DNA of 64,000 nucleotides from Mesohalobacter halotolerans (lineage in GTDB: Bacteria > Bacteroidota > Bacteroidia > Flavobacteriales > Flavobacteriaceae), in contig NZ_SWMU01000003.1 in NCBI RefSeq assembly GCF_006120725.1, forward strand, positions 248,001 to 312,000. The letters are read 5' to 3'. The notes beneath the pieces are model-generated. The model saw only the letters and a program-made list of their open reading frames with translations, had not been told where the DNA came from and searched no databases. Of the stretch, positions 5,816 to 57,000 are shown piece after piece (positions within the stretch are counted from its first letter, which is position 1; each line of letters begins with the position of its first letter). Made by a program: the position numbers and the translations under genes.

Positions 5816-8635
5816 ATGAAAACTGCATTCAAAACAATTATGTTGTTTATGTGGGTTAGCTTTATTGGCCTAGCACAAACAACTGAGAAGACTCAACAGC
5901 TCTCACTTGACGAAAGTGTGAGGACAGGCGTACTCAAAAATGGGATGACCTATTACATTAAAAACAACAAAAAACCTGAAAATGAGGTAATTCTTCGCCT
6001 TGTTGTGAAAGCAGGTTCAATTTTAGAAACCGAAAAACAACTCGGTCTGGCGCATTTTATGGAGCACATGAATTTTAATGGCACCAAAAACTTTCCTAAA
6101 AACGAATTAGTAGATTACCTTCAAGGCATTGGCGTAAAATTTGGAAATGACCTGAATGCTTACACCAGTTTTGATGAAACAGTCTACTTTCTTCCGATTC
6201 CATTGGATGATCCCGAGAATTTACCCAAAGCTATGGACATCATGGAAGACTGGGCCTTTAACGCCACGCTAGAACCAGAAGAAATAGACAAAGAACGCGG
6301 TGTTGTCTTAGAAGAACTACGTTTAGGTCTAGGCGCTTCAGAACGAATGCGTAAAGAATATTTTGACAAACTCCTCTACAAATCCAGATATGCAAAACGC
6401 TTGCCTATAGGCAAAAAAGAAATTTTAGAAAATTTTGATTATCAAGATCTTATAGATTATTATGAAACCTGGTATAGACCTGATTTAATGGCTTTTATTG
6501 CCGTTGGTGACATCGATGTCGACAAAATGGAGAAAGATATTAAAAAGCGTTTTTCAAAATATAAAAATCCAAAAAAAGCTCAAGAACGCAAAGAATATGA
6601 TGTTCCGGATCATGAAGAGACATTTGTAGCAATTGCCACAGACAAAGAAGCCACTTCACCACAAGTGTCTATTTATTATAAAAATCCTGAAGAGCGACAA
6701 CCCAATACAACTTACCAAACTGCTGAGGCCAATCTTGAAAGCCAATTGTTTTCGAGCATGTTAAACAATAGGTTACGAGAGTTGTCAAACTCTCCTAATC
6801 CACCTTTTACATACGGTTATACCTATTATGGTAGTTTGGTCAATAACAAAAAAATGGCATTCACTTCATTTGCTGTACCCACCAATGATAACCAACTAAA
6901 AGCCCTTGAAGTGCTATTAAGAGAAAATGCCCGAGTTAAGAAATATGGTTTTACAAAATCTGAATTTGACAGGGCTAAAAAAGAGATATTAACACGACTA
7001 GAAAGTCAATTTAAAGAGAAAGACAAAACTGAATCTAGAAGATACGTTAGCCAATTGCAAAATCAATTTACTAGTGGTGATATCTATACAGGTGTAGAAT
7101 GGCGTTACAATTTTACTAAAGAAACTTTACCAAAAATACAGCTTTCAGATATCAATGCCATGATAGATAAATATATAAGAGATGAAAGTCGTGTCGTTAT
7201 TTTTACAGGACCAGAATATGAAGATGAAAGTCAAAAACCTAGTGAAGAAGACGTTTTAGCAATAGTCGACAATAGTTTTGATGACGTTGAAGCTTACCAA
7301 GAAACTAAAATGAGTGAAAGCTTAGTCCGAGAAAATTTGCCTCAAGGCAAAATTGTTTCTGAGAAACGCAATGAAGAGCTGGGCACAAACACCCTAAGCC
7401 TATCCAATGGTGCTAAAGTCACATACAAAACAACTGATTTTAAAGAAGATCAAATTTTGTTCAGAGCCGTCAGTTACGGAGGTTCAAATATGCTAGACAA
7501 TGAAACTTATCAAAAAGTAAGATGGGCCATGAGAGGATTGTCTGAAGCAGGATACTCAGGATTGGATAAAAATGAAATCTCCAAGTTTATGAGCGATAAA
7601 ATTGCCAATCTTAATTTTTCTTTATCAAGTACATCAGAACGCTTTAGAGGCCAGGCAGCACCAAAAGATTTAGAATATATGATGCAAATGTTACAGGCCC
7701 ATTTTACAGATTTGAATTATAACGAAGAGGCTTTTAATGGCTACAAAGCCAAACAACAAGCCTTTATGGGTAATATGTTGGCCTCACCTAGGTTTTACTT
7801 TTTAGATAAAACATTTGGGTTTATAAACGAAAACAATCCAAGATGGGGTGGTATTTTGCCTGATGACGAAGATTGGGCTAAAACTGATTATAAATTGGCT
7901 TATGAAAAATATAAGGAACGCTTTAGCAATGCTGCAGATTTTCACTTTTTCTTTGTGGGTAATATCGACGAAAAAGTCCTTCGCGATTTGAGTGAAAAAT
8001 ATATTGCCGCTTTACCATCTGACCCTAGCCAAAAAGAAAAAGTAAAAGATCTTGGGTTTAGACAAAAGAAGGGAGACTTCAAAAAGATATTTTACAAAGG
8101 CAATGATCCTAAAAGTCAAGTCAGAATTTCTTTTTATGGAGAAACCGAATACGACAAAAAAGAAGCCATGGCAATGGATGCTTTAGGTGAAGTTTTAAGC
8201 ATTAAATTGATTGAAACTTTAAGAGAAGATGAAAGCGGAGTTTACGGTGTTAGTGCCAACGGTGGGATGAATAAACGTCCTTACGGCAGCTACAGATTTT
8301 CAATACAGTTCCCGTGTGGGCCTGAAAATGCAGAAAATTTAGCAGATGCTGCTCTAGCTGAACTTCAAAAAATTATAGATAATGGTCCAACTCAAGAAGA
8401 TCTAAATAAATACAAAAAAGCCCAAAAAGTAGATTATGATGAAAATTTAGAAAAAAATGATTGGTGGATTGATCAAATGACCTCAGCTTATTATAACCAA
8501 ATGAATCCAGAACGGGCGTTAACTTATATGGATAGAGTGAATGCGGTGACGGCTGAAGATGTTCAAGCTGTCGCTAAAAAATATCTTTCCGGTGATAAGT
8601 ATATTGCGATTTTAATGCCCGAGTCTCAACAGTAA
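5816..8635 (+). CDS. M16 family zinc metallopeptidase (two-domain, periplasmic)
   Basis: A 939-residue pitrilysin-like peptidase. The start at 5816 was chosen because it opens a normal signal peptide (MKTAFKTIMLF...GLAQ, residues 1-21) and lies just behind a TAnnTTTG element; the frame stays open 35 codons further upstream but without signal-peptide character. The inverted zinc motif HFMEH occupies residues 80-84 (ligands His80, His84) and the third ligand is likely Glu167, seven residues after Glu160 in DKERGVVLEELRL. A second M16 domain pair fills the C-terminal half without the zinc motif, as usual for the non-catalytic half of the clamshell. Flavobacterial homologues are periplasmic and degrade peptides. 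Monocistronic; ends in a shared terminator with rny. Confidence 0.9.
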   Translation: MKTAFKTIMLFMWVSFIGLAQTTEKTQQLSLDESVRTGVLKNGMTYYIKNNKKPENEVILRLVVKAGSILETEKQLGLAHFMEHMNFNGTKNFPKNELVDYLQGIGVKFGNDLNAYTSFDETVYFLPIPLDDPENLPKAMDIMEDWAFNATLEPEEIDKERGVVLEELRLGLGASERMRKEYFDKLLYKSRYAKRLPIGKKEILENFDYQDLIDYYETWYRPDLMAFIAVGDIDVDKMEKDIKKRFSKYKNPKKAQERKEYDVPDHEETFVAIATDKEATSPQVSIYYKNPEERQPNTTYQTAEANLESQLFSSMLNNRLRELSNSPNPPFTYGYTYYGSLVNNKKMAFTSFAVPTNDNQLKALEVLLRENARVKKYGFTKSEFDRAKKEILTRLESQFKEKDKTESRRYVSQLQNQFTSGDIYTGVEWRYNFTKETLPKIQLSDINAMIDKYIRDESRVVIFTGPEYEDESQKPSEEDVLAIVDNSFDDVEAYQETKMSESLVRENLPQGKIVSEKRNEELGTNTLSLSNGAKVTYKTTDFKEDQILFRAVSYGGSNMLDNETYQKVRWAMRGLSEAGYSGLDKNEISKFMSDKIANLNFSLSSTSERFRGQAAPKDLEYMMQMLQAHFTDLNYNEEAFNGYKAKQQAFMGNMLASPRFYFLDKTFGFINENNPRWGGILPDDEDWAKTDYKLAYEKYKERFSNAADFHFFFVGNIDEKVLRDLSEKYIAALPSDPSQKEKVKDLGFRQKKGDFKKIFYKGNDPKSQVRISFYGETEYDKKEAMAMDALGEVLSIKLIETLREDESGVYGVSANGGMNKRPYGSYRFSIQFPCGPENAENLADAALAELQKIIDNGPTQEDLNKYKKAQKVDYDENLEKNDWWIDQMTSAYYNQMNPERALTYMDRVNAVTAEDVQAVAKKYLSGDKYIAILMPESQQ

Positions 8636-38925: not shown

Positions 38926-39381
38926 TCAAAATAGTTTAGGTAAAAACCGCCCGGTGTTTTGTTTATAGCGTTTGTAGTTAGGAAATTTATGTTGAAGCTG
39001 CGCTTCTTCATATTTTGATTTGAAATAAAATAAAACAACTAAAATCAAAGCAATACACAATTGAAAAATAGAGTTTTTGTAAAGGCTCCAGGATAATAAT
39101 CCCAACATTATAGAAGTATAAATGGGATGTCTAATGTATTTAAAAATGCCATGGGTTATCAATTTAGAATCGGTTTTTGGAGTGGGAAATGGAGACAAAT
39201 TTGTGTTTAGTACTAAAATACTCAAGACAAATATCACAATTGCAAGTGCTAAACAAATACCTAAAACAAAATCTGGTAATACTGGCGGAAGCGTATAAAA
39301 TTTAAGATCAATTATAAAAGCAAAAAACAAAAGAAACTGCAGTCCAACAAAAAGGAGGTCTTTTTTGGTTTTAGGCCTCAT
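38926..39381 (-). CDS. Isoprenylcysteine carboxyl methyltransferase-family membrane protein
   Basis: A 151-residue protein with about four transmembrane helices. The SAM-binding signature of the ICMT/PEMT family is at the C-terminal half: GIFKYIRHPIYTSIM and KSKYEEAQLQHKFPNYKRYK. Bacterial members methylate unknown, probably lipid or small-molecule, targets. The start overlaps the Crp/Fnr gene stop by 4 nt, so the two are translationally coupled. Confidence 0.82.
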   Translation of the reverse strand: MRPKTKKDLLFVGLQFLLFFAFIIDLKFYTLPPVLPDFVLGICLALAIVIFVLSILVLNTNLSPFPTPKTDSKLITHGIFKYIRHPIYTSIMLGLLSWSLYKNSIFQLCIALILVVLFYFKSKYEEAQLQHKFPNYKRYKQNTGRFLPKLF

Positions 39382-40010
39382 AAGTCAATGACTTCTATAG
39401 AATTACGATGTAACTTAATCTTATTGTCTATTTCAAGTTTTTTTAATAACCTGGATATGACAACACGAGACGTGTGCAATTCATAAGCAATTTGTTGATG
39501 GGTAATTTTTAGGGTTTCATTTTGGTTTATTTTTGCCTTGTCTCTTAAATATTTCATCAACCGTTCATCCATTTTTAAAAAGGCAATCGTATCCAGTGTA
39601 TCTAACATTTCGCTCAATCGATTTTGATAGCTTTCAAATACAAACTGTCGCCAAGAGGTATATTTTGCGGTCCATTCTTCCATTTTTTGGACTGGAATCA
39701 TCAATAATTCGGTATCGCTTTCAGCTATGGCACGAATTTCACTTTGCGCATTGCCGATACAACAAGTTAAAGTCATGGCACAGGTATCGCCACGTTCCAA
39801 AAAATAGAGTAAAAGTTCGTCACCATCTTGATCTTCTCGCAATACTTTTATAGCTCCAGAAATGAGCAAAGGCATAGATTTGAGGTAATCGCCAATTTCT
39901 ATAATAGTATCGTTTTGTTTAAATTGTTTGTAAATACCAACCTTATGGATTTCATCTATCAATTCGTCTTCAAAAATAAATCCATAAGCGTCTTGTAAAA
40001 GTGCTTTCAT
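39378..40010 (-). CDS. Crp/Fnr-family transcriptional regulator with a cysteine cluster
   Basis: A 210-residue regulator: N-terminal cyclic-nucleotide-binding-like barrel (about residues 25-125) and a C-terminal winged helix (recognition helix around LHTSRVVISRLLKKLE). In the barrel the segment RGDTCAMTLTCCIGNAQSE carries Cys77, Cys83 and Cys84 where CRP binds cAMP. This cysteine set recurs in a Bacteroidota Crp/Fnr group and suggests redox, metal or sulfur sensing; that is inference. The recognition helix keeps Ser and Arg of the FNR-type helix but not its Glu. Encoded between ruvB (13 nt upstream) and a methyltransferase. Confidence 0.88.
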   Translation of the reverse strand: MKALLQDAYGFIFEDELIDEIHKVGIYKQFKQNDTIIEIGDYLKSMPLLISGAIKVLREDQDGDELLLYFLERGDTCAMTLTCCIGNAQSEIRAIAESDTELLMIPVQKMEEWTAKYTSWRQFVFESYQNRLSEMLDTLDTIAFLKMDERLMKYLRDKAKINQNETLKITHQQIAYELHTSRVVISRLLKKLEIDNKIKLHRNSIEVIDL

Positions 40011-52794: not shown

Positions 52795-54251
52795 TTATTC
52801 TGGTATAAGCCACAAAAAGGGTTTCATTTTTGCTTTATAAATAAAGGCGTGATGCAGCAACAACTTCAACCAATGCCCCGCTAAACCAATGGTCCCAAAA
52901 GTCTTTCCTAGTTTTCTACCTTGAGTTTTCGCATATTTTTTATTGTCAGGCACAATTGGAAATGTAGTAATTGAAATTCCACTTCCCGACGTCAAACCAT
53001 ATCCTGCAGAAGTAATACAAGCCGCACCCATGTTGCACAGTGATCCTTTATGATGTAAGGTTTTAGATTTGGTTTTGATTTGATCAATTATATTATCGGC
53101 GACCAATTTTGCAGTAATTCCTGATGGCATTCCTATTCTAGGTGGCGAAGGAAATATAGGGTTGCCGTTTTTACTATTTCTAGGTCTGGATATTGAATGC
53201 GGAGGTGCAAAAGCGATACCTGGAGCAAAAATATTGGAATAGCTCGGGTTTTGATAGGTTTCTGGCCAGTCCTGAACTGTCCATTCTTCATAGGGTTTTG
53301 AGGTGTAATCTGCATCTACAAGCATAAAGCCTCTAAAAAGCTTGTCTGTGATATCTTTATTGTTTTTGTCATAAGCTTTGAATCCGTGACCTGAGAAAGA
53401 CGGAATTAACATTGAAAAATCAAATTCTTCTTTGTGATATTCACCATCAAGGGTTTCGTAGTGAGCAACACCGTCTTCAATTTTATTGACACCGGCTTTT
53501 AATATCCATTCTATACCGCGATCTTCAAACACCATTTCTATCATGTCTTTTGATTTCATGATGTGACTTCCATAGCTCAACAACATCCCATCCATACCAA
53601 AATCTCCGAGTTCATTTTCATTAGAAATCCATTTGATTTCAGCCATATCTCTCACTTTATGCCGCCTTAATTCCTTTTCTACATTGAGTATATATTCAAA
53701 TGCTGCGCCTTGACAAGTAGATTTAGCATGACCTGTGCCAATCAAAATTTTGGTCTTGAAGCCCTTTTTCATTTTTTGAATGAGCTTTTCTAAATTTTGC
53801 CAAGCGTGTTCTGCATGGGTATAAGTGCAAACAGAATTACATTTATTTTGACCTGGAATTAAGCCTGGTGTAGCTTCAAAATTGAGTTTTGGTCCTGTGG
53901 CATTGATCAAATAATCATAAGTGATTTTTGAAGTTTTATTTTTATCATCATTACTCACATATTCCACTTCAACAAAAGACTGGTCTACTTCTGCATCACC
54001 TTCGGGAAAAAACTTTTCGCTTTAGCTTGAATGAAATCAATTTTTTTCTTTTTGTAAAGTGGTTTTAAAGGAAATAGGATTTTTTTAGAAGGCATTCTTC
54101 CTATACCAACCCATATATTTGAAGGAATCCATTGATAAATTGAATTGGGAGAAACAACGACAACCTGATGCGGTTTACCTAATTTTCTTCTTAAATGTGA
54201 AGCAGCAACATGGCCAGAAATGCCAGCACCGAGAACTACAATCTTTGACAT
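52795..54251 (-). pseudogene. Sulfide:quinone oxidoreductase-like FAD protein, one frameshift
   Basis: Two frames together encode one flavoprotein of about 485 residues. The N-terminal part (start 54251) has the FAD motif IVVLGAGISGHVAASHLRR and runs to KSFFP; the next frame continues as PEGDAEVDQSFVEVEYVS to the stop at 52795. The break is at a T6-C3 run (54004-54012 on this strand's complement): one extra C would restore the frame. Cysteines in KSTCQGAAFEY and SLCNMGAACITSAGYG and the C-terminal amphipathic region fit the sulfide:quinone oxidoreductase family, which feeds sulfide electrons to quinone. Either a real inactivation or a consensus error. It has its own operator-promoter. Confidence 0.8.
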
Positions 54252-54267
54252 GATAACATAATTTTAC

Positions 54268-54311
54268 CAAATGTAGAACTTCACATAAAAATTATAAGTA
54301 ACTCAAGTTAC
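54268..54311 (-). promoter_or_regulatory. Operator plus promoter of the flavoprotein gene
   Basis: On the minus strand the palindrome GTAACTTGAGTTAC (54298-54311) is followed after exactly 22 nt by TACATTTG (54268-54275), a perfect TAnnTTTG, and the ATG is 16 nt further on. The same layout stands before cydA. The palindrome centre would lie near -41 relative to the expected start site, the position of a class II Crp/Fnr activator. Confidence 0.7.
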
Positions 54312-54340
54312 ATAGCTTTGGAATTAGATTTCAAATTAAT

Positions 54341-54515
54341 CCCGGCTTAGGGATAGGAGCGGCACCCTTTTGGTGATGTAGCTTAGCGAAGTTGTCATAC
54401 TGGTGTGCCGCCTATTAGGCACACCGGTATGACTTACTGAGACTTGCTACAGCACCAAAATGTATAGTGGATAGCCCGACACTGACAAACGCACAGCGTT
54501 GTCAGTGGAAGCCTC
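54341..54515. repeat. Multi-hairpin structured intergenic element
   Basis: Between cydB and the flavoprotein gene. A base stem TTTTGGTG..GTAGC (54368-54382) pairs with GCTAC..CACCAAAA (54446-54460). It encloses a 16-nt hairpin GTCATACTGGTGTGCC (54394-54409) / GGCACACCGGTATGAC (54418-54433). A third hairpin ACTGACAA / TTGTCAGT (54481-54506) lies beside it. The flanks GGGATAGGAGCGGCACC and GTATAGTGGATAGCCCGAC resemble inverted-repeat elements that recur in flavobacterial genomes. It is GC-richer than its surroundings. Not a simple terminator: no T-run follows. Confidence 0.7.
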
Positions 54516-54520
54516 ATAAA

Positions 54521-55558
54521 TTAATAACCTTGTTGATCTAATTTGACTTTACCCCAAAATGTCCTGTAGACAAAATAGCTGTAAAGCAGAACTAATGGGC
54601 CACCAACAGCGACAAAACCCATCATGATTTTCAAGGTCTTAATGGACGCGGCTGCATTGTAAATGGTTATGCTATTTTGTATTTCTGGATTGGATAAGAG
54701 TAAACGTGGATATAATTCAAAAGCTACAACTACAAGTAAAAGCGCAATTGTAATACTCGTAAAAATAAAAGCCCATCCATACTGCTTTTTGCTGGCTAAT
54801 CTTGGGACATTGGCAATACTGAGAAAAACTAATAGTGCCACGATAAATAAAACTTTATTCTCTTCAAAAACTACCAGTAAATGATCTAGGTAAATCAAAC
54901 CGTAAGCCGTTGTGACGATATAAGAAATAATAAAAAAGGCCATTCCTTTTCTTAAAAATCCTTGAATTCTATCGTAGAGTTTTCCTTCAGTCTTTAAAAG
55001 TAAGTAAATGGCACCATGCATCATAAATAATGCGAGACTAGTCACTCCAACTAATATTGAAAAGGGGTTTAAAAAATCAAAAAAACCACGCCCCACATAT
55101 TCGTAATTGTTGTCCAAAGGCATGCCATTTAAAATGTTGCCCAAAACCACTCCCAATAAAAAGGCAAGCATAATACTTGAAATAGAATAACTCCAGTCCC
55201 ACATTCTTCTCCACCACAGCATGTCTTCCATATTTCTGAATTTGATGGAAATTCCTCTGAAGATGATGAATAGTAAAAATAAAATGAACGGTGTGTACAT
55301 GGCAGAAAATAGTGTACCATAAAACACGGGGAAACCAGCAAACAAAGTGCCTCCACCAATGACTAACCACACTTCGTTACAATGCCATGTTGGGTCTATG
55401 GCTTTTAAAGCGGTCTCTCGACTGGTATTTTTCCTAAAAAACATGTGCCAGGCACCAGCGCCAAAATCAAAACCATCTAAAATTGCGTAACCTGAAAAAA
55501 GACCACCAACTATTAAAAACCACCAAGTTGGATAATCTATACCTAATAATGTATCCAT
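54521..55558 (-). CDS. cydB: Cytochrome bd quinol oxidase subunit II
   Basis: A 345-residue membrane subunit with about eight to nine helices. The N-terminus shows GYAILDGFDFGAGAWHMFF and WHCNEVWLVIGGGTLFAGFP, typical of CydB. It pairs with CydA to form the proton-motive, high-affinity quinol oxidase that works at low oxygen and tolerates sulfide. It begins 8 nt after cydA. Confidence 0.94.
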   Translation of the reverse strand: MDTLLGIDYPTWWFLIVGGLFSGYAILDGFDFGAGAWHMFFRKNTSRETALKAIDPTWHCNEVWLVIGGGTLFAGFPVFYGTLFSAMYTPFILFLLFIIFRGISIKFRNMEDMLWWRRMWDWSYSISSIMLAFLLGVVLGNILNGMPLDNNYEYVGRGFFDFLNPFSILVGVTSLALFMMHGAIYLLLKTEGKLYDRIQGFLRKGMAFFIISYIVTTAYGLIYLDHLLVVFEENKVLFIVALLVFLSIANVPRLASKKQYGWAFIFTSITIALLLVVVAFELYPRLLLSNPEIQNSITIYNAAASIKTLKIMMGFVAVGGPLVLLYSYFVYRTFWGKVKLDQQGY

Positions 55559-55566
55559 AAATATTT

Positions 55567-56943
55567 TTATTTTGAAACAACTTTAGCTATTTGCTTATTT
55601 AAACTTCCATCATCGAAATCTATGTCTGAATTTGGACCATTTTGTATCTTTTTATTCATCAAATACACAAAAAGAAGAAATAGCACTAAGTAAACGATAA
55701 AAAACAAAATCAAAGAAAACAAGACTTGATTGGCTTGAACGCTTTTTGATAGGGCATCTGAAGTCCTAAGCAATCCATATACTACCCAAGGTTGGCGTCC
55801 CATTTCTGCGGTAAACCATCCAAATTGATTTGCTATTTGTGGAAGTAAGGCTGTGAATACAAAAGTCCACAACAACCATTTTTTCTCAAATAATTTGCCA
55901 CGCTTCCATTGCCATAAGGCAAATAAACTCAGAGCGATTAAAAACATACCGATAGCGACCATGATGTGGTAAAACTGAAAAATAGCATTGATTTGAGATG
56001 GCCGGTCTTCTTCTGGAAAGGTATTTAAACCCGTAACTTCTTCATCTAAATCCTGATACAACATAAAAGACAATCCACCAGTTAATTTTAAACCAGTTAC
56101 TTTTTGATTTTCCTTGTCAACCCAACCAAACAGATAAAGATCAGCTGGTGCTGATGCTTCAAAATGTCCTTCCATAGCAGCTAGCTTCGCTGGTTGATTT
56201 TCTGAAACGCCTTCAGCAGATTGATGACCAGTAAATAATTGAGCTAGAGAACAAATAGCCGCAACAACTAATGTAATTTTAAAGGCTTTTTTAGACAAGA
56301 CCACATAGCGACCTTTTAAAATATAATAGGCGTGAACACTTAAAATTAAAAAGGTTCCGGCCAGAAAAGCACCGAGCCAAACATGTGTTAACCGGTCAAC
56401 AGAAGAAGGATTAAATACCATTGCCCAAAAATCAACAATCTCAGCTCTGGCTTGCATACCTTCGCCAACAATATGATAACCAGCGGGCGTTTGTTGCCAG
56501 GAATTGGCCACGACAATCCAAACCACAGAAAACATCGATCCTAAAAAAACCGCCCATGTAGCAACTAAATGCACCCAAGGTTTGACACGGTTCCATCCAA
56601 ACAACAAAACCCCCAAGGCACTGCTCTCTAAAGCAAATGCAAAAATACCTTCAGCGGCTAAGGCGCTACCAAAAATATCACCGACATACCTGGAATACGT
56701 CGCCCAATTGGTGCCGAATTCAAATTCCATGACGATTCCAGTGACCACACCAACCCCGAAAGTAATTGCAAAAATTTTAGTCCAGAATTTTGCTAAAACT
56801 TCATATTTTTTCTTTTTTGAGCGCAGATACATACTTTCAAAAACTACCATAATCAATCCAATACCTATGCTTAATGGTGGATAGATGTAATGAAAAGCAA
56901 CTGTGAAAGCAAACTGGATACGGGAGAGAATTTCTACATCCAT
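55567..56943 (-). CDS. cydA: Cytochrome bd quinol oxidase subunit I
   Basis: A 458-residue haem-bearing subunit. The axial haem ligand region is [15 protein letters not shown] (His18), the quinol-site Q-loop part is [18 protein letters not shown], and the periplasmic Glu-rich helix [19 protein letters not shown] is present. The protein is of the short-Q-loop form. The promoter shares its operator and spacing with the flavoprotein gene 2.7 kb away. No cydX or cydDC is adjacent. Confidence 0.94.
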
Positions 56944-56956
56944 AAGCTTTTTTTTA

Positions 56957-57000
56957 CAAAGTTAATAGATGTAGTAAAGAGACAATGCAACTCAAGTTAC
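56957..57000 (-). promoter_or_regulatory. Operator plus promoter of cydAB
   Basis: On the minus strand GTAACTTGAGTTGC (56987-57000) is followed after exactly 22 nt by TAACTTTG (56957-56964), a perfect TAnnTTTG, 13 nt before the cydA start. One base differs from the palindrome before the flavoprotein gene. The centre falls near -41, which fits an activating Crp/Fnr dimer. Confidence 0.7.

Follow-up and report, generated by a model that had tools for sequence, protein, structure and literature searches.

Why should a gene for a sulfide:quinone oxidoreductase (SQR)-like flavoprotein and the cydAB operon for cytochrome bd oxidase carry the same operator and promoter arrangement, and which regulator and signal would act on it? 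Both lie in a 64,000-nucleotide (nt) stretch of Mesohalobacter halotolerans DNA (contig NZ_SWMU01000003.1, positions 248,001 to 312,000; hereafter the window, numbered from its first nucleotide). The best explanation as a whole, and one that we regard as probable, is a regulon extending across Flavobacteriaceae and run by a dimer of P0001, a Crp/Fnr-family protein encoded in the same window, which would act as a class II activator at sites with a fixed 22-nt gap and respond to sulfide or sulfane sulfur. The operator, its geometry and conservation, the gene content, and the pairing with the regulator can all be read directly from the sequence.

The genes, operators, and boxes of the window described here are all on the (−) strand. 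The operator of the SQR-like gene, GTAACTTGAGTTAC (54298..54311), belongs to the few exact GTAACN4GTTAC palindromes of the genome, and the sigma-A −7 box TACATTTG (54268..54275) stands 22 nt downstream of it, with the ATG (54251) following 16 nt past the box. The cydAB operator, GTAACTTGAGTTGC (56987..57000), has one imperfect palindrome arm; its box, TAACTTTG (56957..56964), again lies 22 nt downstream, and the cydA ATG (56943) follows after 13 nt. Re-measured in the window, the coordinates and distances of both arrangements agreed exactly with those in a preliminary description of this DNA. Subunits I and II of the oxidase are encoded by cydA (55567..56943; PF01654, E = 2e-163) and cydB (54521..55558; PF02322, E = 6.4e-91). 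The SQR-like gene (52795..54251) is broken into a frame of 88 amino acids (aa; 54251-53985) and one of 390 aa (53967-52795), the latter resembling solved sulfide-quinone reductases (best E = 5.2e-24). Its orthologues in two relatives, G003 (485 aa) and G027 (484 aa), are single unbroken frames, and the split (53967-54251) may represent a pseudogene or a sequencing error.

Exact GTAACN4GTTAC occurs at five places in the 2.65-Mb genome, all of them outside the listed open reading frames (ORFs; at least 80 aa). With no more than one mismatch, eight sites combine the palindrome and the box at gap 22, each with a start codon 4 to 24 nt away. The genes behind them encode the SQR-like protein, CydA, TauE, a 1-Cys peroxiredoxin, TolC, a rhodanese, a cytochrome c with a Tll0287-like domain, and a fatty-acid-hydroxylase-like protein; all eight are gene types that have sites in relatives too (SQR only as another SQR type). 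Looser matches were at or below background: palindromes with at most one mismatch numbered 49 genome-wide (the five exact ones included) versus 161 for a reversed-pattern control, the full pattern with at most three mismatches gave 45 matches versus 76, and palindromes with at most two mismatches numbered 13 in the window, where 9.1 were expected. This background is what the view that the promoter pair is a chance coincidence can appeal to, and because of it the two window sites are insufficient by themselves; the case rests on how rigid the geometry is and how well it is conserved, and not on the palindrome alone.

We therefore turn to the geometry in relatives. When the gap between exact palindrome and exact TAnnTTTG was left free from 10 to 34 nt in 60 related genomes, gap 22 accounted for 93 of 117 matches, followed by gaps 21 (n = 6) and 23 (n = 5), with 13 at other distances; a reversed control pattern gave nine matches in the same genomes. 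The share of gap 22 was 81/97 in the own genus, 10/16 in other genera of Flavobacteriaceae, and 2/4 in the order. A second set, 80 named Flavobacteriaceae loci that surround regulator orthologues and were picked by regulator, not by motif, contained 87 gap-22 sites and no more than one site at every other gap within 8 to 40. At these loci, permuting the half-site without changing its composition (59 variants) gave a mean of 0.05 gap-22 sites (highest, 3), and a half-site spacing of 4 returned 173 palindromes versus at most three for each other spacing from 0 to 10. The cydA promoter is itself conserved. A search that within the family covered 24 genomes of the own genus gave 22 matches, and 14 loci were scanned for sites; an orthologue (85 to 100% identity) is present in 12 of the 24 genomes, the source genome included, and all 12 keep the site with zero to two mismatches and a gap of 22 or 23, as does a 43%-identical cydA paralogue in G003. 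The only match scanned from another family (G037) has no site. In view of the rigid gap, the specificity for this half-site, and the conservation at cydA, we reject chance pairing, whose probability appears negligible, and the earlier judgment that two such promoters are unlikely to match by accident is upheld.

The same geometry bears on how a regulator would work here. Start mapping in Flavobacterium psychrophilum assigns the sigma-A box TAnnTTTG to −12 to −5 (PMC9723704). Combined with the 22-nt gap, and with the box position borrowed from that species, this puts the operator at −48 to −35 and its center at −41.5, which is the class II position.

Among the four Crp/Fnr homologues in the genome, P0001 (210 aa; 39378..40010) is likely the best candidate activator, as judged from co-occurrence, adjacency in relatives, and fold. 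It scores over the PF00027 cut-off and matches CRP, NtcA, and the structure 3dv8, and its best fold matches are Crp/Fnr structures. In a sample of 299 family genomes, with orthologues defined by E ≤ 1e-50 and the motif by a gap of 20 to 24, the motif was present in 207 of 240 genomes with a P0001 orthologue and in 7 of 59 without one (Fisher p = 8e-28 for these counts, which were summed manually over per-genome tables). Genomes with a paralogue-level match only (E from 1e-30 to 1e-50) contained the GTAAC motif in 3 of 15 cases even though seven of the 15 are 4.2 to 5.4 Mb in size, so genome size seems not to explain the co-occurrence. Physical linkage points the same way: of the 80 named loci, 41 have a site on the regulator's strand no more than 150 nt past the regulator match, and seven have one in the 700 nt upstream. 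The regulator's neighbors in relatives include SulP, metallo-β-lactamase (MBL)-rhodanese, Sulf_transp, TauE, rhodanese, and heavy-metal-associated genes.

Two further observations concern regulator genes. In four loci (L239, L242, L243, and L264; ~7530-8010), a gene for a 132- to 147-aa membrane protein with CxxC pairs has a GTAAC site in front of it and lies immediately upstream of the regulator gene, which suggests positive autoregulation in these species; the L239 membrane protein had no Pfam match. The source genome also contains a fourth Crp-like stretch with an internal stop codon (L018; G000:C4:461132-461386), beside genes named by reading as DsbD-like and pirin-like, which is possibly a decaying regulator.

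The sites might instead be read by another factor of the same family, since a Glu-type paralogue (C1:44450-45028) and a response-regulator/Crp fusion (C5:117337) are also present in the genome. The scarcity of the motif in genomes with a paralogue-level match argues against this, as does the recognition helix. In P0001 the helix codons 181-187 (SRVVISR; 39450..39470) place Val183 where CRP has Glu181, in alignments that include CRP and NtcA. Val occupies this position in 25 of 25 rows of one alignment (P0001 and 24 of the 80 named loci) and in 29 of 31 rows of another (P0001 and 30 chosen orthologues), the two remaining rows (L094 and L100) having Glu. Rodionov et al. (2005; PMC1274295) tied CRP position 181 to an operator base and gave the HcpR2 consensus GTAACnnnnGTTAC, with mostly Pro at that position. 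We compared the helix residue with the adjacent operator in loci from L088 on, a mixture of loci from regulator and GTGAC-site searches, made unique by the last 60 residues. Val was paired with GTAAC in 51 cases and Glu with GTGAC in 15 (L358 being counted twice among the latter, and the own Glu-type site excluded because its box ends in A), with no crossed pair in 66, while 68 genes had no site within reach. None of the 23 Glu-type genes in this table was followed by a GTAAC site, and the gene of the Glu-type paralogue is itself followed immediately by a GTGACN4GTCAC site, in relatives at the identical 22-nt gap. We regard an alternative reader of the GTAAC sites as very improbable. The Crp/Fnr class II architecture proposed in the preliminary description is borne out by the center at −41.5, the strict gap in relatives, the co-occurrence and adjacency with one Crp/Fnr gene, and the match of Val and Glu to GTAAC and GTGAC.

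The Glu-type system deserves description in its own right. In the source genome (L019:1426-2334, from G000:C1:44450 onward) its gene is followed directly by GTGACCTTAGTCAC, 22 nt, and the box TATTTTTA, behind which lies a gene for a 69-aa YgaP-like transmembrane protein (PF11127). In other genera, a Crp gene of this kind stands beside the site in 9 of 30 fetched GTGAC loci, and some GTGAC sites precede MBL-rhodanese genes.

What, then, would P0001 control? A total of 93 distinct gap-22 sites (91 with an ORF), which include all 92 distinct gap-22 sequences of the free-gap search, were assigned to gene groups; the groups are BLAST clusters in which one member per named group was identified by a Pfam or PDB search (DsrE only at its Pfam cut-off). 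The first genes behind the 91 sites were dominated by TolC-type efflux (n = 19), TauE/SafE (n = 17), rhodanese and MBL-rhodanese (n = 12), and peroxiredoxin (n = 8), followed by cytochrome c (n = 6), SQR (n = 5, plus the own, different SQR), thioredoxin (n = 5), fatty-acid-hydroxylase-like (n = 4), heavy-metal-associated domain (n = 3), and a protein without a Pfam match (n = 3), with two each for SulP, Sulf_transp (YeeE-like), DsrE-like, and cydA. The 87 sites of the named loci (84 with an ORF and 3 without) preceded TauE (n = 27), rhodanese/MBL (n = 22), SulP (n = 7), TolC (n = 6), the small CxxC membrane protein (n = 6), cytochrome c (n = 4), and smaller groups. The SQR behind five sites is of another type found in the genus, close to mitochondrial SQR (best E = 8e-91, for the one member tested), and by its promoters an SQR of this other type is a predicted regulon member in other species. 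The predicted regulon is therefore sulfur-centered, and many of its genes would handle sulfide and its products. This content, which reflects sequence rather than expression, backs the earlier proposal of a joint sulfide response.

Both the cysteines of P0001 and the gene content suggest that a thiol-based sensor is at work, with sulfide or sulfane sulfur as its most likely signal. P0001 has only three cysteines (C77, C83, and C84), all in a loop (codons 77-84, CAMTLTCC; 39759..39782) whose counterpart in the CRP alignment is the cAMP-binding loop and which is proposed as the thiol sensor. Across the 31 rows of the larger alignment C77 never varies, and C83 and C84 are each kept in 28; the 25-row alignment has all three in every row. 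Their conservation is compatible with a sulfide- or persulfide-responsive regulator, and no more than that. Two classical sensing modes were considered and rejected. CRP contacts cAMP through a GEL...RSA motif in its sensor loop, and where CRP reads GDFIGELGLF...ERSA, P0001 reads GDTCAMTLTC...QSEI; FNR senses oxygen through an N-terminal cysteine cluster for [4Fe-4S], and P0001 has no such cluster, with three cysteines in 210 aa. The low-oxygen response offered as an alternative to sulfide in the preliminary description consequently found no support as such, the gene set being sulfur-centered. A related possibility is that P0001 is the right regulator but responds to a nitrosative signal, as HcpR2 does, or to oxygen limitation, the sulfur genes being a by-product of low-oxygen life. 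The HcpR2 consensus (PMC1274295) is identical to the operator here. Many bacteria also have cydAB among their low-oxygen genes. Against this, hcp (PF03063) was found in none of 37 family genomes and in 2 of 60 overall, Val stands in P0001 where most HcpR2 proteins have Pro (position 181), none of the three cysteines is N-terminal, and the targets are sulfur-centered. We consider this reading unlikely.

Several parts of the sulfide-responsive regulon are inferred: that P0001 binds, that it activates and does not repress, what it senses, and how its cysteines react. A P0001 dimer would bind GTAAC-N4-GTTAC centered at −41.5 and activate sigma-A RNA polymerase at the TAnnTTTG box 22 nt downstream, with the operator replacing the −33 element. 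Sulfide or sulfane sulfur would be read by the three cysteines of the proposed sensor loop. The regulon would take up, oxidize, and clear sulfide and its products by means of SQR, a persulfide-dioxygenase-like MBL-rhodanese, rhodanese, thioredoxin, and peroxiredoxin, together with TauE/SafE and SulP transporters, an efflux operon, a cytochrome c, and, in this genus, cytochrome bd oxidase. In a wider proposal, which we favor only slightly, this so far unnamed Flavobacteriaceae activator senses sulfide or sulfane sulfur through a thiol loop that replaces the cAMP pocket, and its Glu-helix paralogue runs a GTGACN4GTCAC sister regulon, so that two sulfur regulons would run in parallel, set apart by a single residue and a single base pair and each fixed at −41.5.

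Several findings weigh against the sulfide-responsive regulon under P0001. The exact motif is missing from 33 of the 240 orthologue-bearing genomes, and it is present in the 7 of 59 orthologue-less genomes noted above, four of these seven being assemblies 73 to 87% complete. The complete genome G012 of the own genus has the regulator and lacks an exact site. In the source genome, no site adjoins the regulator gene. C83 is replaced in L060, L093, and L101 and C84 in L093, L094, and L101, and nowhere is the predicted structure less certain than in the cysteine loop (confidence below 50 for residues 78-86). The residue-to-base correspondence is not perfectly clean, since L094 and L100 have Glu183 and L094 carries a mixed site, GTGACTTTGGTTAC, right behind its gene as well as a GTAAC site 3.7 kb off. 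The TolC efflux, fatty-acid-hydroxylase-like, and unassigned members have no evident sulfur role. Finally, the expectation that orthologous promoters would share the motif held for cydA but not for the own SQR type, which is rare (3 of 37 family genomes): no site precedes its orthologues in G003 and G027 or the two SQR orthologues from another family. Thus, cydAB appears to be a stable member of the regulon in the genus, and the membership of this SQR gene appears to be local.

Positions 54338-54520, in the intergenic stretch that separates cydB from the SQR operator, fold as RNA into a very stable long hairpin (−76.6 kcal/mol; z = −6.2), a 31-nt piece of which is single copy within the window; it may be a terminator or else a palindromic mobile element.

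Flavobacteriaceae are abundant in sea and fresh water. Within the open-access literature (RegPrecise and most subscription journals being outside this scope), we found no sulfide-related Crp/Fnr regulon for Flavobacteriaceae or Bacteroidetes and, for the family, no regulator of sulfide handling. The portions considered of a CRP/FNR meta-regulon paper (PMC8510549) treat flavobacterial homologues as MalR-like and mention neither GTAAC nor sulfide, and those of PMC10434189 and PMC9478572 contain nothing on the regulon described here. Three things here lend themselves to direct tests: the order of operator, 22 nt, and TAnnTTTG as a rule for promoters, P0001 as the candidate activator, and the naturally occurring specificity pair of one residue and one base. 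If confirmed, they would add Crp/Fnr activators to the sulfide-responsive regulators and tie cytochrome bd oxidase to sulfide defense in this genus.

Parts of this system are already known: the operator and the rule for position 181 from HcpR2, and the outer triplets from NtcA. HcpR2 shares the operator consensus, the Crp/Fnr family, and a change at CRP position 181 that accompanies a changed operator base, but its target is hcp and most HcpR2 proteins carry Pro at 181, whereas here we find Val, no hcp, and sulfur genes. Membership in HcpR2 was accordingly rejected: the operator agrees, but P0001 carries Val183 in place of Pro, and hcp is missing from all 37 family genomes. Cyanobacterial NtcA promoters have GTAN8TAC centered at about −41.5 (PMC3898017). 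This box is contained in GTAACN4GTTAC, the center is alike, and Val occupies the position equivalent to CRP 181 in NtcA as well; NtcA differs in that it exerts nitrogen control through 2-oxoglutarate in another phylum and is distant in sequence (E = 2.9e-12). The best PDB sequence match of P0001, the Crp/Fnr protein 3dv8 of Eubacterium rectale (E = 1e-18), has cysteines that align with C77 and C83, but it carries Glu in the helix and is titled only a putative regulator. In gene content, the closest parallels are the sets under SqrR/BigR, CstR, and FisR, which comprise SQR, persulfide dioxygenase, rhodanese, and a TauE-type exporter. Those regulators belong to other families (ArsR, CsoR, and sigma-54 activators, respectively), whereas a gene set of like kind would here be served by a protein of the Crp/Fnr family placed as a class II activator.

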